Part shown: one piece after another, positions 16,065 to 41,221 of the stretch
Numbering within the stretch: position 1 is the first letter of the stretch
How the letters are laid out: each line of letters starts with the position of its first letter
NCBI RefSeq assembly: GCF_010093345.1
Contig: NZ_PDWT01000008.1
Location: forward strand, 1 to 64,000
Source: Pseudoxanthomonas yeongjuensis
Lineage (GTDB): Bacteria > Pseudomonadota > Gammaproteobacteria > Xanthomonadales > Xanthomonadaceae
Reading direction: 5' to 3'
Length of the DNA stretch: 64,000 nucleotides
Program-made: the position numbers and the translations under genes
Notes under the pieces: model-generated
The model's input: the letters and a program-made list of their open reading frames with translations, nothing else
The model's database searches: none
Told to the model about the DNA's origin: nothing

Positions 16065-16148
16065 GGTGGACTTTCCCCTGGTTCTTCTATTGGTTGGATG
16101 ACTGCATTTGCCTTGCGTGGCGCGCGAACCGCCGCACCGGACCGCGCC

Positions 16149-19029: not shown

Positions 19030-19890
19030 TCAGTAGCGGCGACCCAGTTCGAGCAGTTCCGTGGTACCGATGACCGCATTGAGTCCGTCGAAGTCAAGCA
19101 TGTGCTCCCGCATCGGCGCCGTAGTGCCGTGGGCCTTGAGACTTCCGAAGTACTTCTGCAAGGCGAAGCCTACCGCGCGCGAAGTCCCGCCTGGATAGAT
19201 GACGATGCGGTAACCCATCCTGCCCAGCGAATCGGTGTCGTGGATCGGGGTTTTTCCGCCTTCGATCATGTTGGCCAGCAAGGGAATACGGCTGCCGAAA
19301 CGCTGGCCGGCCTCGCTGAGTTGTTCCTGCGTGCGCAGCGCCTCGATGAACAGCGCATCGATGCCGCACGCCAGATACGCTTCGGCGCGATCCACTGCCG
19401 CGTTCCAGCCCTCGACGGCGAGCGCATCGGTTCTTGCCATGATCAGCGTGCTCGCGGACCTGCGCGCATCCAGCGCCGCGCGCAGCTTTCCGCACATTTC
19501 CGCCACCGGGATCACCTCCTTGCCAGCGAGATGCCCGCAACGCTTGGGAAATGTCTGGTCTTCGAGTTGCAGCATGGCCGCGCCCGCACGCTCGAAGGCA
19601 CGCACGGTACGCTGGGTGTTGAGCGCATTGCCCCAACCCGTGTCGGCATCGACGATGAGCGGCAGGTCGACCCTGTCGACGATGCTGGCCACCGTATCGG
19701 CCACTTCGGTGGCGGTGACCAGACCGACATCCGAACGGCCCAACCGGGCGTAGGCGATCGACGCGCCGGACAGGTACAGCGCCTCGAAGCCGGCCTGCTG
19801 GGCGAGGAGTGCGGTCAGCGCGTCGTAGACGCCCGGGACCAGCAGCGGCTGGGATAGGCTGAGCCGTTCTTTCAGATTGGTGTCGGGCAT
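19030..19890 (-). CDS. ICL/PEP-mutase-family carbon-carbon lyase (dimethylmalate/methylisocitrate lyase-like)
   Basis: This 286-residue TIM-barrel enzyme starts at ATG 19890, which matches the usual family length; longer frames run into low-quality sequence. Motifs are the Mg-binding DADTGWG (D81, D83), a LED triad near 111, and PKRCGH with the flexible-loop Cys118. The KKCGH-type Cys is typical of true lyases (isocitrate, 2-methylisocitrate, 2,3-dimethylmalate lyase) rather than PEP mutase. The reaction in the family is retro-aldol cleavage of a 2-hydroxy dicarboxylate to a keto acid plus a carboxylate. As the last gene of the operon below an aconitase-like hydratase, it probably performs the final cleavage step, perhaps releasing pyruvate. 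The substrate is inferred, not shown. Confidence 0.85.
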   Translation of the reverse strand: MPDTNLKERLSLSQPLLVPGVYDALTALLAQQAGFEALYLSGASIAYARLGRSDVGLVTATEVADTVASIVDRVDLPLIVDADTGWGNALNTQRTVRAFERAGAAMLQLEDQTFPKRCGHLAGKEVIPVAEMCGKLRAALDARRSASTLIMARTDALAVEGWNAAVDRAEAYLACGIDALFIEALRTQEQLSEAGQRFGSRIPLLANMIEGGKTPIHDTDSLGRMGYRIVIYPGGTSRAVGFALQKYFGSLKAHGTTAPMREHMLDFDGLNAVIGTTELLELGRRY

Positions 19891-20061
19891 CGAATTCAGG
19901 TCCGGAATAAAAGGTTCGCGCGCAACTGGCTGCGTCGGCAGTTGCCGGTCGGGTCGATCGAGTAGTCCGCAGGCGGGTACCGGCGCAGGCCGGGACTCCT
20001 CTCCGCCCGCTGGAGAGGCTTGATCCAGACGGATTGGAGCGGGCCTTCGCTCGCCGCAATG

Positions 20062-20139
20062 GACGCTCCCACGCCAGTGCATCCATCCCGCTGGAGCGCG
20101 CTGCAGGCGCGCCCACGGATTGCGCTGCGCGGGAGCGTC
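20062..20139. repeat. REP-like inverted repeat abutting the amidohydrolase stop codon
   Basis: GACGCTCCCACGC (20062-20074) pairs with GCGCGGGAGCGTC (20127-20139). The right arm overlaps the TGA of the amidohydrolase gene (stop at 20138-20140). It occupies most of the 247-bp gap between that gene and the lyase gene, and could act as a transcript-stabilising or attenuating structure. Confidence 0.5.
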
Positions 20140-21604
20140 AGTCGGGCCGACGCATGAACCTGCCGCGCGGCTTTCCGACCACGGCGCCATCCGCATATAT
20201 CAACTGACCGCGCAGCCAGGTCTGATCGACACGCGCTTCCATCTGCATGCCCTCGAACGGAGTGTAGCCCTGGCAAGACTCGCTTTCCCTGGCGTGGATC
20301 GTGTACGACGCGGTGTCGTCGACAAGGGCCAGGTCGGCATCGAAACCCACGGCGATATCGCCCTTGCGGTTCAAGCCATAGCGTTGTGCAGGATTCCATG
20401 ACACCAGTTCGGCGATCCGATTGAAGCCGAGGCCGCGCTTGCGCCCTTCGGAGATCAGTGCGGGCAACATGTATTCGGTGCCGCCGAAGCCCGACTTGGC
20501 CACGAAGATGTCGTCCGGATGCTCCGCATGCACCTTCGACTCGGTCTTGCAGCAGGCATGGTCGGAGCATACCCAGCTTATGTTTCCATCGAGCAGCGCC
20601 TGCCACAGGTATTCCACATCCTCGCGCGGGCGGATAGGCGGATTGACCTTGGCCAGCGCACCGCAGGGCGCATCGGTATCGAGCATCAGGTGCCCGATGG
20701 TGACTTCGCGGCGGAAATTGATGTGCGGGAAGGTCGCGGCCATCATCATCGCCGCATCCAGCGCCTTGCGCGACGTCAGGTGCAGCAGGTTGATGTTGAC
20801 GCAATCCGTCTCGTTGGCAAGATAGCTGGCGATGAAGACGGCCAGTCCCTCGGAGTGCGGCGGACGCGATGCGGAATAGGCCGGCAACCCCTCCAGCTTG
20901 CCCTCGCGCTGCACGATCTCGGTGTACGCGCGCATGATTTCTGCGGTCTCGCAGTGCAGCGACAACGAGATCTGGTCGGCCAGTTTGGGGTACTTGTCCA
21001 TCGCACGGCGGACGCCGCGCATGATGAACTCGAAATGCGCGTAGTCGTAATGCTCGCCCGGCGGCGTCATCAGGAACGACCTCTGGTCGGCGCTGCTGCC
21101 GTGCAGGCCGTGCTGGCCGTAGAACATGAAGATCTTGAACGAGGAGACCCCATGGTCGGCGATCAGCGCGTCGATCTCGTCGATGTGGGCGGCCATCATC
21201 GGCGCCAGATGGAAGCAGTAGTCGACATGGAAATTGCCCTCGGCCTGGCGCAGCACCTCGGGGAAGAACTCGGCGTACGGGCCGGACTTGTTGAGGTAAT
21301 ACTGGCCGGTGCGCATGTAATTGAGCGAGCTGGTGACGCCGCCCATGGCCGCCGCCCTGCTCTCGCTGACCGCATCCAGCTCCAATGGCTGGTAGATGCC
21401 CGTGTGCATGTGCGCGTCCACGGCGCCGGGAAACGCCAATCGGCCCTTTCCATCGACGAGTTCGCTGGCGCGCGCGGGATCTATAGCGGCGGAAATCTCG
21501 GCGAACTTGCCGTCCTTGATTGCGATATCGCCGATCGCCACCGTGTCCTGGTTCGGGCGGACGACACGAAGATTCTTGATAAGGACGTCGAACTCAACTG
21601 CCAT
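20138..21604 (-). CDS. Dihydropyrimidinase/hydantoinase-like metal-dependent amidohydrolase
   Basis: This 488-residue cytosolic enzyme of the cyclic-amidohydrolase group (hydantoinase, allantoinase, dihydroorotase, imidase) starts at ATG 21604 with GGAG about 9 nt upstream. The binuclear-metal ligands are all visible: HMH (H65, H67), the carboxylated-lysine candidate K157 in SSFKIF, H217 in SLHCET, H275 in LLHLTS and D348 in CSDHA. Family members hydrolyse cyclic amides or imides to open the ring. Its placement between the LeuCD-like hydratase and the lyase suggests it makes or feeds the open-chain acid handled by them. No pyrimidine or purine genes are near. Substrate unknown; an allantoinase or hydantoinase role cannot be excluded. 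Confidence 0.85.
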   Translation of the reverse strand: MAVEFDVLIKNLRVVRPNQDTVAIGDIAIKDGKFAEISAAIDPARASELVDGKGRLAFPGAVDAHMHTGIYQPLELDAVSESRAAAMGGVTSSLNYMRTGQYYLNKSGPYAEFFPEVLRQAEGNFHVDYCFHLAPMMAAHIDEIDALIADHGVSSFKIFMFYGQHGLHGSSADQRSFLMTPPGEHYDYAHFEFIMRGVRRAMDKYPKLADQISLSLHCETAEIMRAYTEIVQREGKLEGLPAYSASRPPHSEGLAVFIASYLANETDCVNINLLHLTSRKALDAAMMMAATFPHINFRREVTIGHLMLDTDAPCGALAKVNPPIRPREDVEYLWQALLDGNISWVCSDHACCKTESKVHAEHPDDIFVAKSGFGGTEYMLPALISEGRKRGLGFNRIAELVSWNPAQRYGLNRKGDIAVGFDADLALVDDTASYTIHARESESCQGYTPFEGMQMEARVDQTWLRGQLIYADGAVVGKPRGRFMRRPD

Positions 21605-21752
21605 GGTTGTGACTCCGGAGAAACGGTGAAAGGAAGAATGGAAAGGCGATCGGCCTATTTTCCGACCCGAGCGACGCGCGTCCTGCGCTGTTTGCGGGAC
21701 GGTATTCCGGCCGCGGTCGAACGCGGAATCCCGCGACGGACAACGGCATCGG

Positions 21753-22250
21753 TCATGGCGCGCGCCTACGGGCCAGCTTGCGTTCGAGCCACGGCATCAG
21801 CCCGCCGACGGCGACCACCTCCAGCAACTCGGCTGGCATCTTCTCGCAGGGGAACTCGCGTCCCTGGGTGTGGTTGATCACGATGCCTTCGACCGGGCGC
21901 ACCTCGATATCGTCGCCGGGATCGGCCTGGAGCTCGGGACAGACCAGCGTGGGCATGCCGAGATTGAGCGCGTTTCGATAGAAGATCCGGGCGAAGGATT
22001 TCGCCAGCAACGCACCGACCCCGAGCGTGAGCAGGGCCTGCACCGCCTGTTCGCGCGACGAGCCGATACCGAACGAGTCGCCGGCGATGATGACGTCGCC
22101 GGGCCTCACCTCGCGGGCGAAATCGGGATCGATCGCCTCCAGGCAATGGCTGGCCAGCTCCTCGATGGAGCTGCGCATGTACGGACCGGGAGCGAGCAGA
22201 TCGGTGTCTATCCTGTCGCCGAAGACGAAAGCGCGGCCACGGACGTTCAT
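21753..22250 (-). CDS. Aconitase-family hydratase, small (swivel) subunit, LeuD-like
   Basis: This 165-residue subunit starts at ATG 22250, overlapping the large-subunit stop by four bases (ATGA), which implies translational coupling and a 1:1 complex. Key motifs are DRIDTDLLAPG near the N-terminus and GDSFGIGSSREQAV with the substrate-binding GSSRE loop. LeuD-type swivel domains close over the iron-sulfur site of LeuC-type subunits. The 165/423-residue arrangement is like archaeal-type isopropylmalate or homoaconitate enzymes and dimethylmaleate hydratase, smaller than housekeeping proteobacterial LeuCD. No leuA or leuB lies nearby, so leucine synthesis is not implied. Specificity is unknown; a branched hydroxydicarboxylate is the likely substrate. 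Confidence 0.87.
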   Translation of the reverse strand: MNVRGRAFVFGDRIDTDLLAPGPYMRSSIEELASHCLEAIDPDFAREVRPGDVIIAGDSFGIGSSREQAVQALLTLGVGALLAKSFARIFYRNALNLGMPTLVCPELQADPGDDIEVRPVEGIVINHTQGREFPCEKMPAELLEVVAVGGLMPWLERKLARRRAP

Positions 22251-23518
22251 GCCGTCTCCGCCAACATTTCGCGCGGATCGCATATCTCGCCCTTCACCGC
22301 GCCTGCAGCGACGCTGTAGGGCGACCCGAGGTAGACCATCGACTCGGACGACCCCATGCGGCCCTTGAAATTGCGCGCGGTGGTGGACAGGCACACCTCG
22401 CCGCCGGCGACCATGCCCGCGCCCATGCCGGCACAGGCGCCGCAACCCGTGGGCAGCAGGATTGCGCCTGCATCGGTGAGGATTCGCAGCGTGCCGTCGG
22501 CAGCCGCCCGGGCGGTCATTTCCACCGAGGCCGGCGCGATCAGCAGTCGCGTTCCGCGCGCCACCTTGCGTCCCTTCAGCACCTCCGCGGCCATCTGCAG
22601 GTCCGACAGCTTGGCGCCGGTGCACGCGCCGATGTAGGCCTGATCGATCGCGACCCGGCCATAGGAGGCCGCCGGCCGGCTATTGGCGGGGCTGTGCGGG
22701 GCCGCGATCTGCGGTTCGAGCGTACTTGCGTCGAAGCAGTGGTTGGCGAGACAGGCTGCGTCGGAGTCGCTTTGCCAGCGTCCGATGTCGCCGGCGAACG
22801 GACGCCCGGCCAGCTCCAGCGCATGCAAGGTAGCGGCATCGGCGGTAACGATGCCTGTCTCGGCGCCGAGCTCGGCGGACATGTTGCACAACACCATGCG
22901 TTCGGACATCGACATCCTGCGCACGGCCGGGCCGTCGTATTCGAAGGCCTGGTTCTCATTGCCCATGCCCAGCGAGGCGCACAGGAACAGCATCATGTCT
23001 TTCGCGCTGACGCCGGCGGCCAGTTCGCCGTTCCAATTCACCCGGACCGTTTCCGGCACCTTCAGCCATATCTCGCCAGTGACCAGTGCGGCGGTGATAT
23101 CGGTGGCCCCGACGCCCATCATGAACGCGCCGAACGCGCCTCCACTGGTCGAGTGCGAATCCCCGCCCACGCAGAACATCCCCGGCTGGATATGCCCGTG
23201 CTCTTGCAGCACCACGTGGCAGATCCCGACCGAATCGTAGTGCCGTACGCCATTCGCCCGGGCCCAGCGGCGGGTCAGCGCGAGTATTTCGGCGCTCTCG
23301 ATATCCACCGCGGGAACGAAGTGGTCGCTGACCACGACCACGCGGTCCGGATCCCATACCGTGGCGCCCAGCGCTTCCAGCCGCGAGGCGACCCTTCGGG
23401 GTCCTCCCGAGTCGTGCATCATCAGCAGGTCGATCGAGGCGGTGATGATCTCGCCTGGCCGCACCTGCTCGCGCCCGCACGAATGCGCGATTATTTTTTC
23501 GGCAAGCGTCGAAGCCAT
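22247..23518 (-). CDS. Aconitase-family hydratase, large [4Fe-4S] subunit, LeuC-like
   Basis: This 423-residue large subunit starts at ATG 23518, four bases after the regulator stop. Family landmarks are VVVSDHFVPA, the signature GGDSHSTSGGAFGAF, the cluster cysteines in GACTGAK and CGACAG, and TARNFKGRMGS near the C-terminus. Aconitase-family enzymes catalyse reversible hydration and dehydration of 2- or 3-hydroxy dicarboxylates through an unsaturated intermediate. With the small subunit it would isomerise or hydrate an intermediate that the downstream ICL-family enzyme then cleaves. Candidates include a dimethylmaleate or citraconate type acid, by analogy with the nicotinate-fermentation hydratase. 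This is inference from gene order. Confidence 0.88.
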   Translation of the reverse strand: MASTLAEKIIAHSCGREQVRPGEIITASIDLLMMHDSGGPRRVASRLEALGATVWDPDRVVVVSDHFVPAVDIESAEILALTRRWARANGVRHYDSVGICHVVLQEHGHIQPGMFCVGGDSHSTSGGAFGAFMMGVGATDITAALVTGEIWLKVPETVRVNWNGELAAGVSAKDMMLFLCASLGMGNENQAFEYDGPAVRRMSMSERMVLCNMSAELGAETGIVTADAATLHALELAGRPFAGDIGRWQSDSDAACLANHCFDASTLEPQIAAPHSPANSRPAASYGRVAIDQAYIGACTGAKLSDLQMAAEVLKGRKVARGTRLLIAPASVEMTARAAADGTLRILTDAGAILLPTGCGACAGMGAGMVAGGEVCLSTTARNFKGRMGSSESMVYLGSPYSVAAGAVKGEICDPREMLAETA

Positions 23519-23522
23519 GTTC

Positions 23523-24329
23523 CTACTCTTTCGGTTTCCAGTTCACGACATCCAGGCTCATCTGGTAGCGGAACTGGTCGGGTCGGTATTGGATGTTCAG
23601 CAGATCGACCAGTTGGCCGCTGGCATTGAATGACTGGCGCTCCAGGGTGAGCAGCGCCGCGCCGGGCTTCACCTTCAGGTACCCCGCGATGATGGCGTCG
23701 GCCGAAACCGCCGACAGGCTCTGTTCGACCCGGGCTATGTCGATCTTGCAGCGCTTGAACAACGCCAGGCGGGACGTAGTGGCGAGATTGGCCTTGTTGA
23801 ACTGCGGGTGGTCGGTGTTGGTCCAGCTCGTGTAGTAGCCGAACGGGGTCTTGTTGAGGCTGCGCACCCGGACCGCGTTCACGATCGCTTCGTCGGCGCC
23901 CAGCTCGAAAAGTTCGCGGACGCGCGCTGGCGGCGGCGTGCGCAGGAACTGGAGCAGGTTCACATCGGTGGCCTCGGCGAGTATCTCGAGACTCTCGAGC
24001 AGGCCGGTCAGCGGCGCGCGCAACGGCTTGGCCTTCTTCTGCTTGGATGCGGCCTGATGGATCACGACCGTGCCGCGCCCGCGCGAACGCTTGACGAGTC
24101 CGGCCACCGCAAGCTCGTCCAGTGCGCGCTTGGCCGTCATCCGCGAGACGCCGAACGAATGGGTCAGTTCGAACTCCGACGGCAATTGCGTATCCACGGG
24201 AATTTCCCCACTCAGCACGTAGTCGCGCAGGATGGTGAACATCTGGAAATACAGCGGCACGGGCAGATCGCCCTGCAACAACTTTTTCAAGTCCGGCGAC
24301 CGCAACCGATCTATCGCGTTGCTGCTCAT
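23523..24329 (-). CDS. GntR-family (HutC/UTRA) transcription regulator
   Basis: This 268-residue repressor-type protein starts at ATG 24329 with GGAG upstream. The N-terminal winged helix (about residues 20-92) has the GntR signature VPLYFQMFTILRDYVLSGE, LPSEFELTHSFGVSRMTAKR and RGRGTVV. A basic linker (KQKKAK) leads to the UTRA ligand-binding domain (about 105-262; VRSLNKTPFGYYTSW, SADAIIAGYLKVKPG). HutC-type members bind GTNTANAC sites and release DNA on binding the pathway substrate or an intermediate. A matching palindrome overlaps the promoter at 31664-31697, upstream of the TonB receptor gene. The gene itself lies inside the operon, so autoregulation is likely. Confidence 0.9.
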   Translation of the reverse strand: MSSNAIDRLRSPDLKKLLQGDLPVPLYFQMFTILRDYVLSGEIPVDTQLPSEFELTHSFGVSRMTAKRALDELAVAGLVKRSRGRGTVVIHQAASKQKKAKPLRAPLTGLLESLEILAEATDVNLLQFLRTPPPARVRELFELGADEAIVNAVRVRSLNKTPFGYYTSWTNTDHPQFNKANLATTSRLALFKRCKIDIARVEQSLSAVSADAIIAGYLKVKPGAALLTLERQSFNASGQLVDLLNIQYRPDQFRYQMSLDVVNWKPKE

Positions 24330-24396
24330 TTTTCTAACTCCATTTTCGAAGCGTTGTTATCGTGACTATGGGCCATTTCCCAAGGCGGAAGCGCGG

Positions 24397-25764
24397 TCAG
24401 GACGGAACGTCGGCCCATGCCTGCGATTCCGCCAGGGCGGCACGGAAGTGGCGCAGGTTGTAGACGAGCAGGGCCGCGGCGAACAGGACCGCGCCCAGCG
24501 AAATGCTCATTACCGAATAGCGCAGCGCGAGCGGGTCGCGGAATACGTAGTCGGTGAACAGCGCCACGCCGGTGGGACCGATGGTCAGGCCGACCACGTT
24601 GACGACCAGGTAGTAGATCGCCGACGCCTGGGCGCGCATCTGGTTCGGCGTGACGATCATCAGGGCGCCGAGGGCGCAGGCGGTGGCCGCGGTCGTGCCG
24701 ATGGAAGCGGGCAGCAGCAGCACGACCGCGATCCAGGGCGACGGTGCGAGGGCCGCGCCGACCGCGCTGGCGCCGGCGACGATCGCGCAGATCAATGCCG
24801 CGCGCATCTGCGCGTCGCGGTATCCCCTGGCGGCCAGGCGTTCGCTCAGCCACGTCGCGGCGAGCGCCGACAAGGGCGCCGCCAGCAGGACCACCGTGCC
24901 GTAGGCGAGGCCGACCTCGGCGATGCCCCAGCCCCAGGTCCGGATGAACATGGTGGGGATCCAGGCGAAGAGCGCGTAAGCCAGGAGGGCCACGGCCGAC
25001 AGGCCGAGGAAGTGGCTCCCGTACATGCGCCAGCGGTCGAGCAGATAGCGCGCGACTTCGGCCAGCGACATGTGCACGGCGGCGCCCGCCTCCGTCGGAA
25101 GGCCTTCCTTGCGGCTCGGCTCGCGGATGGTCAACATCAACGCGGCCATCAGCAGGCCCGGCAAGCCCACCACGATGAACACCGTCTGCCAGGCGTACAG
25201 CTCGCCCACCATGGGCAGGCGCAGCGGCGGAGCGTTCGATACGTAGGTGATGACCTGGCCGCCGACGATCATCGCCAGGCCGATGCCCAACAGGATGCCC
25301 ATGTTGTAGACGCCGATCGCGCGGGTCCGGGTCCGCTTCGGGAAGTAGTCGCTGATCAGCGAGAGCGCTGCCGGACCGAGCGAGCCTTCGCCGATGCCGA
25401 CGCCCAGCCGGAACACGAAGAGTTGGCCGTAGTTCCGGGCCAGTCCGCAGGCGGCGGTCATGGCGCACCAGATGGCGATGCCCGAGGCGATGATCGCGCG
25501 CCTGCTGTAACGGTCGGCCAGTCTGCCGATAGGCACGCCGAGCAGGACATAGAAGATCGCGAACGCCAGGCCGATCAGGAGGCTGACCTGGGTATCGCTG
25601 ATGCCCAGGTCCCGGCGGATGGGTTCGATCATCAGCGCCATGATCTGCCTGTCGACGAACGACACGGCATAAGTCAGCGTCAGGATGGCGACCACATACC
25701 AGCTGTAACCGCTGGGGGGATAACCGGTTTCCGTCGGGTCGCCTGGCGCGTGTTGACTCACCAT
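24397..25764 (-). CDS. MFS transporter, spinster-like
   Basis: This 455-residue inner-membrane protein has about 12 membrane segments. ATG 25764 has a very good site (GGAGAGG) and is chosen over the longer frame to 25920. The motif-A loop GRLADRYSRRAII lies between segments 2 and 3, and RLGVGIGEGSLGPAALSLI follows in segment 4, typical of the spinster-like MFS group that moves organic anions, aromatic acids or similar metabolites. The context (TonB receptor and exported cupins upstream, catabolic enzymes downstream) suggests uptake of the periplasmically processed substrate. A perfect hairpin lies in the 171-bp gap upstream and could modulate read-through. Confidence 0.88.
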   Translation of the reverse strand: MVSQHAPGDPTETGYPPSGYSWYVVAILTLTYAVSFVDRQIMALMIEPIRRDLGISDTQVSLLIGLAFAIFYVLLGVPIGRLADRYSRRAIIASGIAIWCAMTAACGLARNYGQLFVFRLGVGIGEGSLGPAALSLISDYFPKRTRTRAIGVYNMGILLGIGLAMIVGGQVITYVSNAPPLRLPMVGELYAWQTVFIVVGLPGLLMAALMLTIREPSRKEGLPTEAGAAVHMSLAEVARYLLDRWRMYGSHFLGLSAVALLAYALFAWIPTMFIRTWGWGIAEVGLAYGTVVLLAAPLSALAATWLSERLAARGYRDAQMRAALICAIVAGASAVGAALAPSPWIAVVLLLPASIGTTAATACALGALMIVTPNQMRAQASAIYYLVVNVVGLTIGPTGVALFTDYVFRDPLALRYSVMSISLGAVLFAAALLVYNLRHFRAALAESQAWADVPS

Positions 25765-25861
25765 TCCTCTCCTATCGAACTTTTTTGCATCGCAACTGGA
25801 TCCGGCGACCCACAGGAGGCGGCCGGCGAGGAATGACGATCGTGATCGAACCGACCCTGGC

Positions 25862-25883
25862 GCCAGCGCGAGTCCGCGCTGGC
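25862..25883 (-). promoter_or_regulatory. Intra-operon hairpin upstream of the MFS gene
   Basis: GCCAGCGCG, loop AGTC, CGCGCTGGC form a perfect 9-bp stem in the gap between the third cupin gene and the transporter gene. No U-tract follows on the minus strand, so RNA protection or differential expression is more likely than termination. Confidence 0.4.
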
Positions 25884-25935
25884 CGGGACGCGGGCCACGG
25901 CGTCCGCCATGGCCCGGCAATGCGAGAAGCGCCCG

Positions 25936-27084
25936 TCAATGCGGTTCATGGCTCCTCGGCACATAGCGCGGCACGTTGTAATCGTACTTTCTCCAACCCT
26001 TTTCGCCCAAGTACTCGATTCCGGTCTTGTAGCTGCAGTCGGTCACGTACGAGGCCCACAGTTGCGTGCCGGTGCGGACCAGCGTCCAACCCCAGCTCGC
26101 TTCGCCCTGCCCACCCTTGACGTTGCCGTCGCCATCCCTGGGCGGCGGCGGCGGCTGGGCGACGCTGCCATGCGCTACGCCCGCGGCGCGCCAGAAGTAG
26201 CCGCGCGTTCCCCTCTTGTAGGAGGAGATTCCCTGTTCCACGCATTCGCCGCCGTAGCGAGCGGGCGTAGGCCCTCTTTCATCGACCTGGGCGAACCGGC
26301 TGCCCTCGGGGATGTAGTACTCCTCGAAACTGGGATGAATCTCGGCGCCGCCGCCGAAGTTGCCCGGCTTGTCGCTCGGTGGCGCGGGAATGCTGGAGAC
26401 GAACGTCATCCAGGTCATCTCTCCGGTATCGGGATCCTTGCGCATCAGGTTGTGGAGATAACCCGGAAAATTCCCGCCCGTGCGATAGGCCGGGAAGGGC
26501 TCATCGACATACCAGGGATTCCTGTAGCGATTCCAGTCGCGAACGCGCGCGTACGTCCGCGCACCTTCCTTGTCGCGGTCGGAGACCACGAACTTCGGCT
26601 TTCCCTTCCACCACTGCAGAAGCACGGCTCCCTGGCGGGACTTCACCGGCCCGCGCATCACCCCAGCCGGGAGGTAGCTGTAGGAGTACCTGGTCAGCTT
26701 CTCGCCGGCCGGTCCGTCGCCGATGCTCATGTCGCCGTCGAGGACCACGATCTCGTTGTCCACTTCATCGTAGCCGGCGGGTTGGCTCCAGCCCGCGGGC
26801 ACATAGGTGATCTGCGCCACCGCGTCCATGCTGGGCGATTGGCTGAGCAACCTCCTCTGCAGCCCTGCTGGAATGCCCGGGGCCTCGAACGGCTCCCAGT
26901 CGACGAACTCGATGTTCGGAATGTTGTTCATCAGCCCGGGGCGCCCTTCGACCTCATAGCCCGACTCGGGCACAGCGAACGGCGGCGCCTGGCTGACCGT
27001 CGGCGGTCCGTACTCTTCGGAAAACGCGGGCGATGCGAACATCGCCACAGCGAGCGACAGGAATGTCCATCGTTGCAACTTCAT
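25936..27084 (-). CDS. Exported two-domain cupin protein A (DUF4437/ChrR-like)
   Basis: This 382-residue protein starts at ATG 27084, overlapping the upstream cupin stop (ATGA). A signal peptide covers residues 1-22 (FLSLAVAMFASPAFS). Two cupin modules follow. The first (YVPAGWSQPAGYDEVDNEIVV ... LPAGVMRG) has lost the usual metal histidines. The second (AEIHPSFEEYYIPE ... AAGVAHGS) keeps His, Glu and His. Two Cys (GGECVEQG, VTDCSYKTG) could form a disulfide, as expected for a periplasmic protein. It is closely related to the protein at 28122. DUF4437/ChrR-like cupins are poorly characterised; a metal-dependent oxygenase, isomerase or binding role is possible. A proline-rich loop (PPPPPRDG) is specific to this copy. 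Confidence 0.75.
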   Translation of the reverse strand: MKLQRWTFLSLAVAMFASPAFSEEYGPPTVSQAPPFAVPESGYEVEGRPGLMNNIPNIEFVDWEPFEAPGIPAGLQRRLLSQSPSMDAVAQITYVPAGWSQPAGYDEVDNEIVVLDGDMSIGDGPAGEKLTRYSYSYLPAGVMRGPVKSRQGAVLLQWWKGKPKFVVSDRDKEGARTYARVRDWNRYRNPWYVDEPFPAYRTGGNFPGYLHNLMRKDPDTGEMTWMTFVSSIPAPPSDKPGNFGGGAEIHPSFEEYYIPEGSRFAQVDERGPTPARYGGECVEQGISSYKRGTRGYFWRAAGVAHGSVAQPPPPPRDGDGNVKGGQGEASWGWTLVRTGTQLWASYVTDCSYKTGIEYLGEKGWRKYDYNVPRYVPRSHEPH

Positions 27085-28025
27085 GGCGCCCCCCCCGCTT
27101 GCGCGGTCGGCTCCGCACAGGTGTCGCGATACGTTTCCCAGTGGCCCGGACCCGTGCGGTACAACCACACAGCGAAGGTATCCGAATACTGGCTCAAGCC
27201 TCCGTGGGCGATCCCGGCGGGCCTGAAGAAATATCCATCCGGCCCGTAGGTGCCGGCTACCTGTCCTTGCGGCAGGCATTCGGCGATCGTCATGTCGCCG
27301 GCGAGCAGGTAGCCCTCTTGCCAGCTCTTGCTGGATGCCCAGCGCGGCAGATCGCCCTCGCCGCTCATCACCGGGTAGCCGCCCGGCGTCGTCACTATCC
27401 AGGTCTTCTGTCCGCTGCTCGCGTCCAGGCGTAGAAGCTTCACGTGGAGCGGGGAGTTCTGCATGACCGGCTCATCGCGGTACTTCGGCAGGCTGCCCGG
27501 ACCGTTGGTCGGCACGTCGTTGTAGAGCAGGCCGTCGATGGCGTCGGCCGTCCTGGCGCCGGCCTTGGACTTCGCGCTGGGCACGTAGTCGGGCGCGCCG
27601 CCCCAGAACTGCAGGACCGTGGCGCCTTCCTCGGTGCTGAAGCTGTGCGCATGGCCAGCCGGATAGTACGCGTAGGCGTATCGCCCCATCGGCTTGTCGC
27701 CGATGCGGATGCCGCCTTCGACGACGAACATCTCCAGGTCCGCCGAATGGTATCCCGACGGCTGCTTCCAGCCCGGCGGCAGCTTGGCCAGGATCGTCCT
27801 CGCACCGGTCTTGTCATCGAAGCTCAGCTGCTTGAACTCGGCGCCCGGCAGACCGGGGAACGTCAGCGGGCGGAAGTGCAGGTTGCGCGGCTGGACGAAT
27901 CCGACAAGCTCGGCCGAACGATCGCGCGACTCGGGTATCCGCACGTCCTGCGCGAACGCCGTCGTGCAGAGCAGCCATGCGCCGCACACTGACAGGCCTG
28001 CTCTGAGTCGATTGCTTATTGGCAT
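27081..28025 (-). CDS. Exported two-domain cupin protein B (DUF4437/ChrR-like)
   Basis: This 314-residue protein starts at ATG 28025 with GGGAG upstream. A signal peptide (LSVCGAWLLCTTAFA) ends near residue 25. It is diverged from the flanking copies. Here the first cupin keeps metal-type residues (GYHSADLEMFVVEG, PAGHAHSF) while the second (SSKSWQEGYLLAGD ... RPAGIAHGG) has lost the leading His. A conserved Cys pair (AECLPQGQ, RDTCAEP) is retained. It sits between the two other cupin genes and is coupled to the downstream one by a 4-bp overlap. A catalytic role is unknown. The reciprocal loss of metal ligands compared with proteins A and C suggests division of labour or a hetero-oligomer. 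Confidence 0.75.
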   Translation of the reverse strand: MPISNRLRAGLSVCGAWLLCTTAFAQDVRIPESRDRSAELVGFVQPRNLHFRPLTFPGLPGAEFKQLSFDDKTGARTILAKLPPGWKQPSGYHSADLEMFVVEGGIRIGDKPMGRYAYAYYPAGHAHSFSTEEGATVLQFWGGAPDYVPSAKSKAGARTADAIDGLLYNDVPTNGPGSLPKYRDEPVMQNSPLHVKLLRLDASSGQKTWIVTTPGGYPVMSGEGDLPRWASSKSWQEGYLLAGDMTIAECLPQGQVAGTYGPDGYFFRPAGIAHGGLSQYSDTFAVWLYRTGPGHWETYRDTCAEPTAQAGGAP

Positions 28026-28121
28026 TGGTAGCTCCCGGGTTGGATCAACATTTGACGGTGGCAAAGGTGGCGAAAACTATCGCGATGCATCGGCTCGAGG
28101 AGCACGGAGTCGGGGGAACGG

Positions 28122-29249
28122 CTATTCGTGCACCCGGTACCGCGGCACGTCGTAGTCGTACTTCTTCCAGCCCTCGCCCGTGTACTCGAGTCCGGTCTTG
28201 TAGCTGCAGTCGCTCACGTACGTGGCCCATAGCGGCGTACCGGTACGGACGATGGAAATGGTGTAGCCCGCGTCGCGCTCGCCACGGCTCATGTGGCCGC
28301 CGTGGGCGACGCCGCCCGGGCGCCACCAGTAGGTGCGGTCGCCGTAGGTGACCGGCGTCTCGCCCTGCTCCAGGCACTCGCCGATGACCGTGTCGTTGGT
28401 CTTCTCGAGGAAGAAATACTCCTCGAAACTCGGGTGCACCTCGTAGCCGCCGCCGAAGTTGCTGGGCTTTCCGCTGGGCGGCGCCGGAATGCTGGAGCTG
28501 AACGTCATCCAGGTCATCTCGCCGGTGTCGGGATCCTCGCGGAGCAGCTTGTGCAGCGCGCCGGGGAAGTTGCCGCCACTGCGGTAGTCGGGGAACGGCT
28601 TGCCGATGTACCAGGCGGCATCGAACTGGTTCCAGTCGCGGATGCGCGCCTCGACGCGCGCGCCCGGTCTGTCGCGGTCGGAGGCGGTGAATTTCGGCTT
28701 TCCCTTCCACCACTGCAGGAGCACCGCGCCCTGGCGCGAGGCCATCGAACCGCGCATGACACCGGCAGGGATATAACTGTACGAATAGCGCGCGAGGCGT
28801 TCGGCTCCAGCGCCTTCGCCGAAGCTGAGGTCGCCGTCCAGCACCACCAGTTCGTTGTCGACTTCGTCGTAACCCGCCGCCTGGCGCCAACCCGCGGGCA
28901 CGTAGGTGATCTGCGCCACCGCGCCCATGCTCGGCGACTGGCTCAGCAACCTGCGTTGCAGGCCGGCCGGAATACCGGGGCCTTCGAACGCTTCCCACGC
29001 GATCGCGGTGGGCGTGTAGTGCAGGACGAAGCCCGAACCCGGCGGCCCCGGGCGCCCTTCGACTTCGTAGCCCTCCTCGGGTACCGGGAATGGCGGAGCC
29101 TGGTTGACGCTCGGCGGACCGAACTCCTGCGCGGCCGCGGGCAATGCGATGCACGCCAGGCCCGCGGCGAGGGTCAGCGAGAGGCATGTCGTGGTGCGGA
29201 GCCACCACACTCCGCACGACGACGGATCCGGGCCGAGTCGGACGTTCAT
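28122..29249 (-). CDS. Exported two-domain cupin protein C (DUF4437/ChrR-like)
   Basis: This 375-residue protein starts at ATG 29249, which shares one base with the receptor stop (TGATG), so translation is coupled to the TonB receptor. A signal peptide (SLTLAAGLACIALPAAAQ) ends near residue 41. Like protein A it has a histidine-poor first cupin (GYDEVDNELVVLDGD) and a second cupin with His, Glu and His (YEVHPSFEEYFFLE ... GGVAHGGHMS). A Cys pair (GECLEQGE, VSDCSYKTG) is present. Proteins A and C share long identical stretches (PAGLQRRLLSQSPS, GAVLLQWWKGKPKF) and are a recent duplication with protein B between them. Substrate unknown. Confidence 0.75.
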   Translation of the reverse strand: MNVRLGPDPSSCGVWWLRTTTCLSLTLAAGLACIALPAAAQEFGPPSVNQAPPFPVPEEGYEVEGRPGPPGSGFVLHYTPTAIAWEAFEGPGIPAGLQRRLLSQSPSMGAVAQITYVPAGWRQAAGYDEVDNELVVLDGDLSFGEGAGAERLARYSYSYIPAGVMRGSMASRQGAVLLQWWKGKPKFTASDRDRPGARVEARIRDWNQFDAAWYIGKPFPDYRSGGNFPGALHKLLREDPDTGEMTWMTFSSSIPAPPSGKPSNFGGGYEVHPSFEEYFFLEKTNDTVIGECLEQGETPVTYGDRTYWWRPGGVAHGGHMSRGERDAGYTISIVRTGTPLWATYVSDCSYKTGLEYTGEGWKKYDYDVPRYRVHE

Positions 29250-31483
29250 CAGTAGGTGTAACCGACGCGGAGCATGATCTGGCGCGGATCGCCGATGTAG
29301 CCGACCACGGCCGGCCTGACCGGATCGGAGCGCAGGAAACCGGCCTGCACGTAGTGCTTGTTGGTCAGGTTGCGTGCTTCCAGCGAGACATCCCAGCTGC
29401 CGTTGCTGCTGCGCCAGCCGATCGACGCATTGAACAGATCGAGCACCGGCGTCTGGACCAGCTCGGGTTCGTTGGAAATGTTGTTGTAGACCTTCGACGT
29501 GTGGTCCCAGGAACCGTTGAACGTCAGGTCTCCCGGCAAGGCCGGAATCGTCGGCGTGAAGCGGAAGCCCACGCTGATCTTCTCCTTCGGCAGGCCCTTG
29601 ATCTCCTTGTCCGTGCAGTCCACATAGACCGCGTTGGCGTTGCCGCAAACGAAATCCTTGGTGTACTTGCCGTCGTTGAAGGCCATGTTGCCGTACAGGT
29701 TGAGGCTGTCGGTGACCTGCCAGTTGGGCTCGAGCTCCAGGCCCCAGACCCGCGCGGCGCCGGCGTTGAGCACCGCCAGGAACTGCGAACCGGGAATGAC
29801 GGTGGTCAGCTGCAGGTCGGTGTAGTCGGCGAGGTAAGCCGTCGCATTGAGCCTGAAGCGGTTGTCCGACGAGTTGATCTTGGCGCCCAGCTCGTAGCTG
29901 TCCACCCACTCTGCGCCGTAAGGCGTGGGCTGGAGCGCCGCCGTCACCGGATCGCGCGAGTTGAAGCCGCCGCTGCGGGTGCCGCGGGTCCAGGACGCAT
30001 AGGTGAACAGCTGGTCGTTGACTTCCCAGTTGACGCCGAGCTTGGGCGTGGTGGAGGAGAAGGTGGAGTGGCCCACCTGCTCGCCCGCCACCGAACCGAT
30101 GGCCAGCGAGTAGTAGTCCGTGGTCTCGCGCGTGTAGCGCAGGCCGGCCACCACGCTCCAGCCATCGCCGATCGTGTAGGTCGCCTGGCCGAACACCGCG
30201 GGCGCCTTGACTTCGTTCTTCGCGTCGTCGACCTGGCTGCCGCCGCTCGCGCCCTGCTGCGAGCCTTCTTCGGCGAAGTAGTACAGGCCGGCGACGCCCT
30301 TGAGCCGCTCGCCAGTGAAGATCGCATTGAATTCCTGCGTCCACCACGAGCTCTCGAGGCGCACCCGGTCCGCGTTGGCCACGACCAGGCGTCCGCCATT
30401 GGCCGCGATCCTGGCCGGCGTGAGGAACGAATCGTTGCCCAGGTTGCGCTGCTTCAGCGAGCCGTAGCCGGTGATGGAGGTCAGTTGCACGTTTTCGGTG
30501 AGGTCGTAGGTCGCGTTGAGCGACGACCCGCGCTGCGAAAGGGTCTGGTCGAGGTTGGCGTACACCTCGTTGATGGTCAGGTCGCGCCCGGGAACCGCGT
30601 ACGGATCGTCGACGCCCGGCAGCACCACCAGCGGGATCGGAATGTTGGCGTCGGAGTCGTCCTGCATCGCGTAGGCCGAGAGCTCCAGCATCAGCTTTTC
30701 GGTCGGCTGGAACAGCAGTTTCATGCGCTCCGCGCTGCGGTCCATGTCGCCGATGCGATCGTCGTACTGCAAGCCGTAGATGTATCCATCGCGCTCGCGA
30801 TGCACGCCGCTGACGGAAAAGGCGAGCTTGTCTTCGATGAGCGGACCGCTGAGATAGAACTTGGCTTCGCGGGCGTTCCAGTCGCCCACGCTCAGCTGGG
30901 CGCCGCCTGTCCACGAATAGGAGGGTTGCTTGGTCACCAGCTTGATGGCGCCGCCGGAAGTGTTGCGCCCGTACAGGCTTCCCTGCGGACCGCGCAGGAA
31001 TTCCACCCGGCTGATGTCGAAGAAGTCGAAGAACGCTCCCATCGGACGGGGCTGGATGACGTTGTCGATATACACGCCGACGGTGCCGTTGGAGCGGATG
31101 CCGCCCGTTTCCGTACCGGCCCCGCGAACGACGATCTTCATCTGCGCGGAAGGAGCCGTCGCGGGCGCGAGCACCACGCCCGGGATCTGGTTGGCGATGT
31201 CGCGTACATCCTTGACCTGGCGATCGCCCAGGGCCTCGAAACTCAGGGCCGTCACCGAAATGGGCGTCGTCTTCACCGAACCGCCATAGCGCTCGGCGGT
31301 CACGGTCACTTCGTCCAGGGTTACCGCGTTGCTCTGCTGGTTCTGTTTTTCATCGGCGGCTTCATCGCTTACCTGCGCCTCGGCCGTCTCGGCGCCGGCC
31401 TGCGCAAAAGCGGCCGCCGGGAACAGCGCGGTCGCGATCGCGACCATCAGGAACTTGCGTACGGGACGAATCTCTCTGGCCAT
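29249..31483 (-). CDS. TonB-dependent outer-membrane receptor, first gene of catabolic operon
   Basis: This 744-residue receptor starts at ATG 31483 with AGAGGGG upstream. The longer frame to 31561 is not needed. The signal peptide ends ALFPAAAFAQ. The TonB box/entry motif is VTLDEVTVTAER, the plug domain runs to about residue 180 (VEFLRGPQGSLYGRNTSGGA), and a 22-strand barrel ends in QIMLRVGYTY with a terminal aromatic. The type is common among receptors of catabolic loci for plant-derived or aromatic compounds rather than siderophores. It is the first gene after the operator-overlapped promoter at 31669-31697 and is coupled to the cupin genes. It presumably imports the pathway substrate across the outer membrane. 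Confidence 0.9.
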   Translation of the reverse strand: MAREIRPVRKFLMVAIATALFPAAAFAQAGAETAEAQVSDEAADEKQNQQSNAVTLDEVTVTAERYGGSVKTTPISVTALSFEALGDRQVKDVRDIANQIPGVVLAPATAPSAQMKIVVRGAGTETGGIRSNGTVGVYIDNVIQPRPMGAFFDFFDISRVEFLRGPQGSLYGRNTSGGAIKLVTKQPSYSWTGGAQLSVGDWNAREAKFYLSGPLIEDKLAFSVSGVHRERDGYIYGLQYDDRIGDMDRSAERMKLLFQPTEKLMLELSAYAMQDDSDANIPIPLVVLPGVDDPYAVPGRDLTINEVYANLDQTLSQRGSSLNATYDLTENVQLTSITGYGSLKQRNLGNDSFLTPARIAANGGRLVVANADRVRLESSWWTQEFNAIFTGERLKGVAGLYYFAEEGSQQGASGGSQVDDAKNEVKAPAVFGQATYTIGDGWSVVAGLRYTRETTDYYSLAIGSVAGEQVGHSTFSSTTPKLGVNWEVNDQLFTYASWTRGTRSGGFNSRDPVTAALQPTPYGAEWVDSYELGAKINSSDNRFRLNATAYLADYTDLQLTTVIPGSQFLAVLNAGAARVWGLELEPNWQVTDSLNLYGNMAFNDGKYTKDFVCGNANAVYVDCTDKEIKGLPKEKISVGFRFTPTIPALPGDLTFNGSWDHTSKVYNNISNEPELVQTPVLDLFNASIGWRSSNGSWDVSLEARNLTNKHYVQAGFLRSDPVRPAVVGYIGDPRQIMLRVGYTY

Positions 31484-31663
31484 CTCAACAACCCCTCTTA
31501 AGTGTGCTGGGACATCTCTAAGATCTGATGTGACGCCTGGCAGGCGATTCGCGCCCTGCAAACCGTCGATTTTTTCCGCCTTCCCCGAACCTTTGCCCTT
31601 CGTGCGGGAGCTATCTGCTGCATCCCTTTCGAGTCCATCGGTGCCGATCGCTCTGCACTTGTC

Positions 31664-31680
31664 CTAAGTATATACATTAG
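31664..31680. promoter_or_regulatory. Putative HutC/UTRA-type operator
   Basis: CTAAGTATATACATTAG contains GTATATAC, an exact match to the GntN-subfamily HutC consensus GTNTANAC, with outer arms CTAA/TTAG in a near-perfect palindrome. It covers the -10 box of the receptor promoter, as expected for a repressor site of the operon-encoded GntR/UTRA protein. Confidence 0.7.
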
Positions 31681-31697
31681 CCATTTGCGGTGGTCAA
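31669..31697 (-). promoter_or_regulatory. Sigma70-type promoter of the catabolic operon
   Basis: Read on the minus strand, TTGACC (31697-31692), a 17-bp spacer and TATATA (31674-31669) form a near-consensus promoter directed at the TonB receptor gene. It is the best promoter match seen in the window and is overlapped by the palindromic operator. Confidence 0.65.
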
Positions 31698-32034
31698 TAG
31701 CCCATATGCGCCAGCTGGAGAGAATTTCCCGTCTTGTGCGATTTCCTTCCGGAGTCTTTCGGGGTCGGCGCGCGTGCGCCACGCCGCTCTCGCGAAGAGG
31801 CCGGGTGCGGCGGGAGCGGATCATCCGCATCCGCGCGGGCCAGGGGCGGCGCCAAGCTTGCCGGACATGCCGTCGGGCACGGCGCCGGTCGGCGGCATGT
31901 TTTTCCGAAGGGCCTGGAACGCGATCCTGGAATGCCGCAGTTGCAGCCTCTGCAGTACTCGGCCCAAAACCGATCCGGCACGCGCGCCGCGCGCCGGCAT
32001 GTCGGGCGTCGGCGCGCAAGCCGCGCCGATGCGC

Positions 32035-33276
32035 TCAGATCGCGGCGTTGTCGCGCAACGTCCGCAGCTGCGCCGCGTCGAATCCCAGCCAGTCGGCCAA
32101 CACGGCGTCGGTATGCTGGCCCAGCGTTGGCGGGGGCAGCCGGTAGCTCACCGGAGTTTCCGAAAAGCGGATCGGATTGGCCACCAGCGATACCGAGCCG
32201 GCTTGCGGATGCGGCATCTCGATACGCATGCCGCGTGCGATGGCCTGGGGATCGGCGAAGACCTGATCGATTGCGTTGATCGGCCCGCAAGGCACCGCCT
32301 GCGATTCCAGCGCGGAAACCCACTCAGCCGTGGTCCTCATCACCGTGGTCTGGCGCAGCAGCGGAATCAGGATGCTGCGGTGGGCCACCCGCTGCGGATT
32401 GCTCGAGAAGCGCGCGTCCTGCGCCCACTCCGGATGGCCGGCGACCGTGCAGAAACGCGCGAATTGCTGATCGTTTCCGATCGCCAGGATCATGTCGCCA
32501 TCCGCGGTCGGAAAATCCTGGTACGGAACGATGTTCGGATGCGCGTTGCCCATGCGCTGCGGCACCTGTCCGCCGACCAGGTAATTGGACGCCTGGTTGG
32601 CAAGACAGGCGATCTGCACATCGAACAGCGCCAGGTCGATGTGCTGGCCCAGTCCGGAGCGCTCGCGTTCGCTTAGCGCGGCCTGGATCGCGATGGTGGA
32701 ATAGAGGCCGGTGAGGATATCCGCCAGCGCCACGCCAACCTTCTGCGGGCCTGCGCCCGGCTCGTCCTGCCCGCGCCCGGTGATGCTCATCAGCCCGCCC
32801 ATCGCCTGGATCAGGAAGTCGTAGCCGGCGCGGTTGGCATAGGGCCCGGTCTGGCCGAAGCCGCTGATGGAGCAGTACACCAGACGTGGCGCGATCGCAC
32901 GCAGGCTGGCCGCATCCAGGCCGTACTTGGCCAGCCCGCCGGGCTTGAAGTTTTCCAGTACGACATCGGCCTTGCGGGCCAGATCCGCGACCACCGCCTG
33001 ACCGGCAGGCGTGGCCAGATCGATGGCGATCGAACGCTTGTTGCGGTTGGCGCAGAGGAAATACGCGGCTTCACCGGTATCGCGTTCTGCGGCATCGCGC
33101 AGATACGGCGGCCCCCAGGTCCGCGTGTCGTCGCCGTGCACGGGGCGCTCGACCTTGACCACGTCGGCGCCGAGATCGGCCAGCATCTGGCTGCACCAGG
33201 GGCCGGCCAGTACCCGCGACAGATCGAGCACCCGGATGCCGGCAAGCGGAGCGCTGCGGAGGGAAGAAGGGCTCAC
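32035..33276 (-). CDS. Class III (CaiB/BaiF) CoA-transferase, probably succinyl-CoA:glutarate
   Basis: This 413-residue cytosolic enzyme starts at ATG 33276. The family N-terminus is GIRVLDLSRVLAGPWCSQML, then GADVVKVERP, FLCANRNKRSIAIDL and the catalytic-Asp segment AGYDFLIQAMGG. The C-terminal part carries VPCGPINAIDQVFADPQ, typical of the family. It follows glutaryl-CoA dehydrogenase with one base between stop and start, forming the well-known pair for glutarate activation and oxidation at the end of lysine or tryptophan catabolism. The substrate is inferred from that pairing. It lies upstream of the separate GntR-controlled operon and is probably not part of it, as a 551-bp gap with a new promoter follows. 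Confidence 0.87.
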   Translation of the reverse strand: MSPSSLRSAPLAGIRVLDLSRVLAGPWCSQMLADLGADVVKVERPVHGDDTRTWGPPYLRDAAERDTGEAAYFLCANRNKRSIAIDLATPAGQAVVADLARKADVVLENFKPGGLAKYGLDAASLRAIAPRLVYCSISGFGQTGPYANRAGYDFLIQAMGGLMSITGRGQDEPGAGPQKVGVALADILTGLYSTIAIQAALSERERSGLGQHIDLALFDVQIACLANQASNYLVGGQVPQRMGNAHPNIVPYQDFPTADGDMILAIGNDQQFARFCTVAGHPEWAQDARFSSNPQRVAHRSILIPLLRQTTVMRTTAEWVSALESQAVPCGPINAIDQVFADPQAIARGMRIEMPHPQAGSVSLVANPIRFSETPVSYRLPPPTLGQHTDAVLADWLGFDAAQLRTLRDNAAI

Positions 33277-34459: not shown

Positions 34460-34535
34460 GGGCGCCGCCGGCAGGGTGAAGGCTGCCATCCTAGGAACCG
34501 GCGGGGCCGGCGGCAAACGAAAAGTATGCAAGCAG

Positions 34536-34554
34536 ATATGATTCTGATGCATAT
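34536..34554. promoter_or_regulatory. LysR-type box between gcdH and its regulator
   Basis: ATATG, nine bases, CATAT form an interrupted palindrome that fits the T-N11-A LysR consensus. It lies in the divergent gap, 76 bp upstream of gcdH and about 73 bp upstream of the LysR gene, in an AT-rich stretch with repeated GATGCA motifs. Confidence 0.6.
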
Positions 34555-34627
34555 TTGGATGCAAATCCTGTACTGAACGCCTGCTGTTGCGCACGATTTC
34601 TGTTTATTCAACCGGTTTTTGCATGTC

Positions 34628-40500: not shown

Positions 40501-40560
40501 GCGGTTATTGTGCGCCTGGGGCCACGGCTTGTTGGGGCTGTCGCTATTTTTTTGGATCGT

Positions 40561-40582: not shown

Positions 40583-40589
40583 GCGACTT

Positions 40590-41210: not shown

Positions 41211-41221
41211 TGTCTTGTTCC

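Follow-up and report, generated by a model that had tools for sequence, protein, structure and literature searches.

Among described systems, one of the closest to the locus treated here is the 2,3-dimethylmaleate branch of nicotinate fermentation in Eubacterium barkeri, an anaerobic route in which an enamidase, the hydratase DmdAB, and a dimethylmalate lyase act alongside B12 mutase and isomerase steps and propionate is formed. Another is a dihydropyrimidinase-like imidase of cyclic-imide metabolism, which appears as a title cited in PMC9863593. We analyzed the first 64,000 nucleotides of contig NZ_PDWT01000008.1 of Pseudoxanthomonas yeongjuensis (the window), in which ten genes on the minus strand (positions 19030 to 31483) encode uptake proteins, a regulator, a cyclic amidohydrolase, a two-subunit aconitase-type hydratase, and a lyase of the isocitrate lyase (ICL) superfamily. 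Tentatively, and at slightly less than even confidence, we propose that this operon degrades hematinic acid [2-methyl-3-(2-carboxyethyl)maleimide], a monopyrrole with a propionate side chain that heme, bilins, or chlorophyll would leave upon oxidative breakdown.

Chlorophyll breakdown is usually traced only to bilins and maleimides and not, it seems, to the point where microbes feed the nitrogen and carbon of the pyrroles back into central metabolism. Synthesis and degradation of chlorophyll are on the order of 10^12 kg per year, and hematinic acid and the methyl-ethyl- and methyl-vinylmaleimides are products of chlorophyll or heme, according to PMC7318184; release of hematinic acid from heme by a bacterial protein is the subject of a title cited in PMC8669743. 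Literature searches turned up chemistry, plant, heme, and community work and no bacterial pathway for hematinic acid or bilin carbon, which is weak evidence of novelty because subscription journals were mostly outside their coverage. If the proposal is correct, genes could be named for the last step of tetrapyrrole breakdown, each enzyme having a testable substrate, and an amidohydrolase group present in many phyla would gain a function.

Operon, upstream gene pair, and proposed route

The open reading frame list and searches of Pfam and NCBIfam (for which a few protein references started some codons upstream of the gene start) gave the transcription order TonB receptor, three DUF4437 cupins, MFS permease, GntR/UTRA regulator, hydratase large subunit, hydratase small subunit, amidohydrolase, and lyase. 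Directly upstream on the same strand, beyond the interval considered in the original prediction, lie genes for a CoA-transferase and a true glutaryl-CoA dehydrogenase (GcdH). The features, in window coordinates, are as follows.

19030 to 19890, minus: PrpB/ICL-superfamily lyase, 286 amino acids (PF13714/PF00463); proposed 2-methylhomoisocitrate lyase (pyruvate + glutarate)
20138 to 21604, minus: cyclic amidohydrolase, 488 amino acids (Pfam amidohydrolase); proposed maleimide (imide) hydrolase
21753 to 22250, minus: hydratase small subunit, LeuD/HacB type, loop YMRS (PF00694; TIGR02087 above cut-off)
22247 to 23518, minus: hydratase large subunit, LeuC/HacA type (PF00330; TIGR01343 above cut-off)
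23523 to 24329, minus: GntR/UTRA (HutC-like) regulator (PF00392 + PF07702)
24397 to 25764, minus: MFS permease (PF07690, MFS_1)
25936 to 27084, minus: DUF4437 cupin 1, signal-like N terminus (PF14499)
27081 to 28025, minus: DUF4437 cupin 2, signal-like N terminus (PF14499 + PF12973)
28122 to 29249, minus: DUF4437 cupin 3, signal-like N terminus (PF14499)
29249 to 31483, minus: TonB-dependent receptor (PF00593 + PF07715)
31668 to 31697, minus: candidate promoter TTGACC-17-TATATA with palindrome GTATATAC as candidate operator (sequence)
31975 to 31997, minus: terminator-like hairpin separating the operon from the two upstream genes (weak: 5 such sites in the stretch versus 7.9 expected from shuffles)
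32035 to 33276, minus: class III (CaiB/BaiF) CoA-transferase, possibly of the succinate:glutarate type (similarity to solved proteins)
33278 to 34594, minus: GcdH (694 bits to solved GcdH 3gnc)
34619 to 35599, plus: LysR regulator, divergent from gcdH (PF03466 + PF00126)

Hematinic acid, the imide of 2-methyl-cis-homoaconitate, was chosen because, on structural reasoning, the lyase pocket, the small-subunit loop, and GcdH would all be satisfied by that one compound. In the proposed route, the TonB receptor would bring in hematinic acid or a larger tetrapyrrole fragment, the MFS permease would import the imide, and the amidohydrolase would open the imide ring. The half-amide would lose ammonia, possibly nonenzymatically (dialkylmaleamic acids are labile and can lose ammonia without an enzyme), to give 2-methyl-cis-homoaconitate. 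The homoaconitase-like hydratase would convert this to 2-methylhomoisocitrate, the PrpB-like lyase would split the latter into pyruvate and glutarate, and glutarate would be converted to crotonyl-CoA by the CoA-transferase and GcdH. Repression by the GntR/UTRA protein would last until an intermediate binds.

The amidohydrolase has the four His, the Asp, and the Lys of the binuclear metal site of the cyclic amidohydrolase family (imidase, hydantoinase, DHPase), in motifs HMH 65, FKIF 156, LHCE 216, LLHL 273, and CSDH 346 as aligned to allantoinase 3e74; carboxylation of the Lys is predicted. Its closest solved structures are allantoinases and hydantoinases, and its score against the allantoinase equivalog is 242 bits (cut-off, 358). 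A regular expression for the ligand motifs matched in full in 64 of 77 amidohydrolase frames, and the group carries the label "dihydroorotase family" where annotation was seen.

The hydratase belongs to the LeuCD/HacAB superfamily, with scores of 443 bits for TIGR01343 (cut-off, 386) and 167 for TIGR02087 (cut-off, 109) and cysteine motifs ACTG 298 and CGAC 359. It falls below the equivalogs for methanogen HacA and HacB (388 versus 550 and 163 versus 230 bits) and for isopropylmalate isomerase (LEU2, 377 versus 611; leud, 144 versus 246). The specificity loop of the small subunit, YMRS, resembles YLRT of homoaconitase (2pkp) and is not of the isopropylmalate type (YLVY or YNLT); the Arg of the homoaconitase loop presumably contacts the distal carboxylate. 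Across 31 related small subunits, the place of the window's Arg is held by Lys in 16, Gln in 14, and Val in 1. The loop region sets substrate preference, as stated in PMC7308503, which cites methanogen work.

With its Pfam family and KRCGH loop (PKRCGH at 115), the lyase is a member of the phosphoenolpyruvate mutase/ICL superfamily, which gives pyruvate when the substrate is a 2-methylmalate; it scores 288 bits against the PrpB equivalog (cut-off, 354), and dimethylmalate lyase 3fa3 is among its solved relatives. It is 63 to 74% identical to 20 lyases from related clusters and about 40% identical to the PrpB-like protein of its own genome. Compared with that protein, the pocket of these cluster lyases reads EGG for EFG in 20/20 and PGG for PLS in all 19 that are readable, while the neighboring Asn and Arg of the PrpB pocket are retained. 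Two more distant lyases (43%; L075 and L077) deviate, with ERG/PGS and EGG/PTT.

None of the four core proteins reaches any known NCBIfam equivalog cut-off, and separate PrpB-, ICL-, LeuC-, and aconitase-like genes (named by similarity and frame length, with no family search) lie elsewhere in the genome. Membership in the allantoin, leucine, methylcitrate, or homoaconitase pathway was rejected on these cut-offs and the separate genome copies, so the original prediction's separation of the system from the first three stands. Its list of ten genes and families is likewise confirmed, as are the PKRCGH loop, the two-subunit hydratase, and the amidohydrolase ligands. Translational coupling of several genes would fit the stop/start codon overlaps present in three pairs (receptor/cupin 3, cupin 2/cupin 1, and hydratase large/small subunit); gaps of ~150 bp (small subunit to amidohydrolase) and ~250 bp (amidohydrolase to lyase) follow, and a single transcript probably extends through to the lyase. 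A complete route within the interval had also been claimed and did not hold: the CoA-transferase and GcdH lie outside it, and no half-amidase was recognized inside it.

The claim of a strong promoter with a matching operator fared less evenly. TTGACC-17-TATATA (31697 to 31669) lies over the palindrome GTATATAC (31668 to 31675), for which 64 kb holds a single occurrence against 0.04 expected. The promoter was not listed by a consensus scan of the window, whose -10 rule is stricter. When GTATATAC and a few close variants were sought in 14 GntR-bearing or paralogous stretches, they occurred outside the window only in L008 and L028, far from GntR; in the scanned relatives, no GntR gene had the palindrome nearby. 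The exact ten-mer TGTATATACT is present in 3 of 137 fetched loci, namely, at the window's own site and in two unrelated Bacteroidetes loci. Both elements are candidates only. In L007 and L008, the gene for a 43% homologue of the regulator converges on that for the amidohydrolase.

All three cupins exceed the DUF4437 gathering score (Cupin_7 also in one), and their N termini, judged by eye, look like signal peptides, which would place them in the periplasm; cupins 1 and 3 are 61% identical. A role for them in cleaving or binding tetrapyrroles is the weakest link of the hematinic acid proposal, and they may bind rather than cleave. The predicted structure of cupin 1 was unusable (mean pLDDT of 49, 4 sequences).

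The assignment of GcdH is clear: 694 bits to 3gnc, then GcdH-named chains and the generically named 4w9u (571) down to 348, with the next enzyme name at 234. The CoA-transferase scores 427 bits against 4ed9 (an unnamed CaiB/BaiF protein), 365 against SUGCT 9br6, 350 against 10uh (named formyl-CoA transferase), and 260 against YfdE, by which it is possibly glutarate type. Among 21 genomes of the genus, own genome included, GcdH was found in 2 (E value of ≤1e-150), the other copy lying, by reading, among beta-oxidation-like genes, and relatives of the CoA-transferase were found in 16 (E value of ≤1e-60; best other, 62% identical). At these thresholds only the present genome has both, and they stand beside the operon.

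GcdH was also sought in 17 chosen cluster-bearing genomes (E value of ≤1e-140) and was found in 14, in 10 of which the lyase is visible in the covered flank. Two beta-proteobacteria (G217 and G225) have GcdH no more than two genes from the cluster's GntR gene, as verified on fetched DNA. Together with the window, GcdH thus stands beside the cluster in 3 of 15 genomes with both, for which the chance is ~1e-4 under independence and 0.004 when the two beta-proteobacteria count once; the null model, random placement within 12 kb out of 4 Mb, is approximate.

Recurrence of the enzyme core and possible links to tetrapyrroles

At an E value of ≤1e-100, the amidohydrolase occurs in 1 of 198 sampled genomes of the family, the window's own, in two copies; within this family, the operon is a rare island. 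On contig C25 (L087:1801-13440), the second copy is 65% identical to the first and is accompanied by LeuC, LeuD, an HMGL-type lyase, a CaiB transferase, an FAD_binding_2 flavoprotein with a weak Tat-signal match, a TonB receptor (48% identical to that of the window), and a cupin-like protein with no Pfam match. This cluster could serve noncarboxylated maleimides.

A scan of genome contigs for relatives gave 96, of which the best 80 loci were kept. Gene calls on these loci are imperfect (in the window, the small subunit and two of the cupins, 1 and 3, were missed), and modules were therefore counted by tblastn with score thresholds, an apparent absence possibly reflecting a short contig. A HacA-type hydratase and a PrpB-like lyase accompany the amidohydrolase in 16 of the 80 loci, of which 15 are titled beta-proteobacterial and one, with a 43% lyase, is from Acidobacteria; 6 further loci have the lyase with no large subunit in the DNA covered. 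The Burkholderiales operon begins with GntR and an ABC transporter recognized by eye as Liv type and continues with hydratase, amidohydrolase, flavoprotein, and lyase. Cultured strains with the cluster in their genomes include Ramlibacter pallidus HM2 (L028) and Caenimonas sedimenti HX-9-20 (L020). Seven Bacteroidetes loci combine the amidohydrolase with a HacA-type hydratase, CaiB, and HMGL, and in Acidimicrobiia and other actinobacteria its partner is MmgE/PrpD, in many cases together with CaiB and CitE and in some with HMGL; a Rhodococcus plasmid carries the actinobacterial set according to its record's own annotation. By hand count, 53/80 loci have a hydratase, for which three types were considered, and 41/80 have a C-C lyase, likewise of three types. 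No hydratase-type gene was seen in the covered flanks of the other 27, the cyanobacterial loci included, and the latter also showed no C-C lyase.

The pairing of one ring-opening enzyme with interchangeable hydratases and lyases in over half of the loci is what would be expected if the opened product were a substituted maleate that is hydrated and then split. This comparison favors the logic of the original prediction (a cyclic imide is opened, and a dialkylmaleate-type acid is hydrated and then cleaved to pyruvate plus an acid); the acid, which had been called short, is probably a C5 diacid. The conserved neighborhood that was to be looked for exists for the enzyme core, and the receptor and cupins fall outside it.

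Details of two loci follow. Plasmid pDND3A of Rhodococcus gordoniae (L138), a cultured isolate, has hydantoinase/oxoprolinase A and B, amidase, PrpD, cyclase, and CoA ester lyase genes in its amidohydrolase cluster. In a gamma-proteobacterial locus (L041:5715-20642), the amidohydrolase is surrounded by two pairs of LeuC/LeuD-like genes, two genes of flavoprotein-like type, and one for a UbiX-like protein (by eye).

A link to tetrapyrroles comes from the neighbors of related amidohydrolases. An RCC_reductase-like gene lies in the flanks of 7/80 loci; the one run through Pfam matched at 1e-13, above the gathering score, and phmmer with another matched solved RCC reductases (9e-9) and a bilin reductase (0.0035), followed by noise. 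Such a gene is present in 8 of 15 genomes checked, the same eight whose loci show PrpD with HMGL. In 296 genomes of the class Acidimicrobiia, RCC reductase (RCCR) was found in 4, the amidohydrolase (E value of ≤1e-130) in 10, and both in 3 (P = 0.0025 without the seed genome), the two draws being taken as the same genomes since their handles agree. A CpeT-family gene (4.7e-32) lies ~3 kb from the amidohydrolase in L023, a Kapaibacterium contig, and cyanobacterial loci have DUF4437-like cupin, DUF3598, or DUF1838 proteins near it.

Six loci, mostly titled Acidimicrobiia or Acidimicrobiales (L061:397-14256, L055, L060, L064, L067, and L083), carry a Rieske oxygenase (VanA_C), an RCC-reductase-like gene, PrpD, CitE, HMGL, and CaiB, and some also carry nitrilase- and isochorismatase-like genes; this appears to be a separate island for the catabolism of chlorophyll or bilins. 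Two candidates were dropped. In Acidimicrobiia, protein c38, encoded next to the RCCR-like gene and bilin-reductase-like by eye, had no Pfam match, a poor model (pLDDT of 42), a best Foldseek E value of 0.095, and an empty profile search. The Bacteroidetes c19 proteins, CpeT-like by eye, gave two sub-cut-off CpeT matches (0.0086 and 0.075) and three blanks among five run through Pfam, and no CpcT appeared in the PDB profile search, which leaves the L023 protein as the sole one accepted as CpeT. In the cyanobacterial (Symploca) loci L039 (7325-8107) and L047, the DUF4437-like cupin has no visible signal peptide, and a DUF3598 protein is also close.

A broader proposal, possible but doubtful in our estimate, is that these clusters form a widespread, undescribed pathway family. 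One module (HacA-type hydratase and PrpB-like lyase) would convert hematinic acid to pyruvate and glutarate; another (LeuCD, CoA-transferase, and HMGL-type lyase) would convert methyl-ethyl- or methyl-vinylmaleimide to pyruvate and an acyl-CoA; Acidimicrobiia would use PrpD, CoA-transferase, and CitE/HMGL beside an RCC-reductase-type enzyme; and periplasmic cupins would cut imported tetrapyrroles into imides.

Alternative explanations and other genes of the window

Several observations weigh against hematinic acid and a tetrapyrrole source. RCCR had no match in the window's own genome, where the same model that matched elsewhere was used, and none in the flanks of any lyase-type locus; the RCCR and CpeT neighbors belong to other phyla and to clusters with other downstream enzymes, and in two further class members with RCCR and the amidohydrolase, the genes are on different contigs. 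No bridge-cleaving enzyme was recognized, heme oxygenase not having been searched for, and the operon offers no recognized enzyme for the half-amide. DUF4437 cupins are missing from the covered flanks of lyase-type relatives. A flavoprotein is present in 18/22 lyase-bearing loci and is absent from the window operon, the second cluster having one; it would have no role in the route unless it desaturated dihydrohematinic acid, the expected product of chlorophyll's reduced ring D, which is an idea only. GcdH is away from the cluster in 12/15 genomes, the lyase is unseen in the covered flank of 4 of the 14 GcdH-bearing genomes, the CoA-transferase margin between SUGCT and formyl-CoA transferase is narrow, and Gln occupies the loop place in 14/31 related subunits. 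In the leaves studied in PMC7318184, hematinic acid was detected and maleimides were not.

Some of these points fit an alternative that we consider unlikely but substantial, in which the same chemistry yields pyruvate and a monocarboxylic acid from a different 2-methyl-3-alkylmaleimide or a cyclic amide related to it, such as methyl-ethylmaleimide, methyl-vinylmaleimide, or a precursor of dimethylmaleate, with gcdH a neighbor by chance. The Gln loops, the solved dimethylmalate lyase among the relatives, the adjacency of GcdH in only 3/15 genomes, and the narrow transferase margin agree with it; the homoaconitase-like loop with its Arg, the joint presence of GcdH and transferase in only 1/21 genus genomes, beside the operon, and the LeuCD-bearing second cluster, which seems a better fit for alkyl side chains, do not. 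That the uptake genes (receptor, cupins, and MFS permease) and the enzyme core were acquired separately for different substrates is improbable: Burkholderiales relatives do have the Liv-type transporter and no DUF4437 cupin in covered flanks, but the genes share one strand with overlapping starts, the second cluster again unites receptor, cupin-like protein, and amidohydrolase, and L039 and L047 have a DUF4437-like cupin near this amidohydrolase.

Two further alternatives assign the ring-opening step to other substrates. Salvage of ureides or pyrimidines by an allantoinase, dihydropyrimidinase, or hydantoinase, with unrelated lyase and hydratase genes alongside, would explain the top family and structure scores and the 27 loci, some cyanobacterial, with no hydratase-type gene in the covered flank. 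We regard it as quite improbable: the score is well short of the allantoinase cut-off, no ureidase or carbamoylase was recognized in the operon, and the hydratases and C-C lyases that recur among the loci are not needed for ureides. To a citrazinate/isonicotinate-type route we give very little credence. There, the amidohydrolase would open citrazinate, and an aconitase-like hydratase and ICL-like enzyme would yield glyoxylate and succinate; opening of an imide-like pyridine ring and hydration of aconitate would require these families, but aconitase- and ICL-like genes are already in the genome, no molybdenum hydroxylase was noticed on reading the relatives' neighborhoods (no search was aimed at one), and a glutarate or tetrapyrrole link would be unexpected.

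Elsewhere in the window, tandem large PATR-repeat proteins are encoded on the minus strand at 10755 to 18335; the one at 10755 to 16064 has an autotransporter beta-domain, and that at 16149 to 18335 (728 amino acids), which lacks a beta-domain and matches PATR only below the cut-off, may be a remnant. A set that by eye resembles Kdp potassium uptake and sensor genes (no family search) occupies 37101 to 44987, minus strand. Positions 45679 to 61091 encode a CaiB CoA-transferase, a beta-lactamase-family protein, a TonB receptor, and a LysR regulator, followed by a PhyH dioxygenase on the opposite strand.

Comparison with described systems

Hydration followed by cleavage to pyruvate and a diacid is shared by the methylcitrate cycle, in which the diacid released by PrpB is one carbon shorter; the PrpB-like gene of this genome is separate, and its product is about 40% identical to the window lyase, with unlike pocket residues. 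Methanogen homoaconitase HacAB provides the closest solved small subunit, with a like loop. It is biosynthetic, whereas the system proposed here would be catabolic, and the window hydratase is below its equivalog cut-offs. In plant chlorophyll breakdown, which includes the RCC reductase step, the route ends at bilins; the amidohydrolase of Acidimicrobiia has an RCCR-family gene as a companion, and none was found in the window's genome. In imidase metabolism, as proposed here, a cyclic amidohydrolase hydrolyzes an imide ring, but the system is known for simple imides such as maleimide and is not known to have a dedicated hydratase and C-C lyase downstream.

The Eubacterium barkeri branch shares the amidohydrolase, the two-subunit aconitase-type hydratase for a dialkylmaleate, and the pyruvate-giving lyase of the ICL superfamily. 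Neither a B12-dependent 2-methyleneglutarate mutase nor a methylitaconate isomerase was noticed among the open reading frames of the window and the loci read, no genome-wide search having been made. Unlike that branch, the window has a GcdH gene and outer-membrane uptake.

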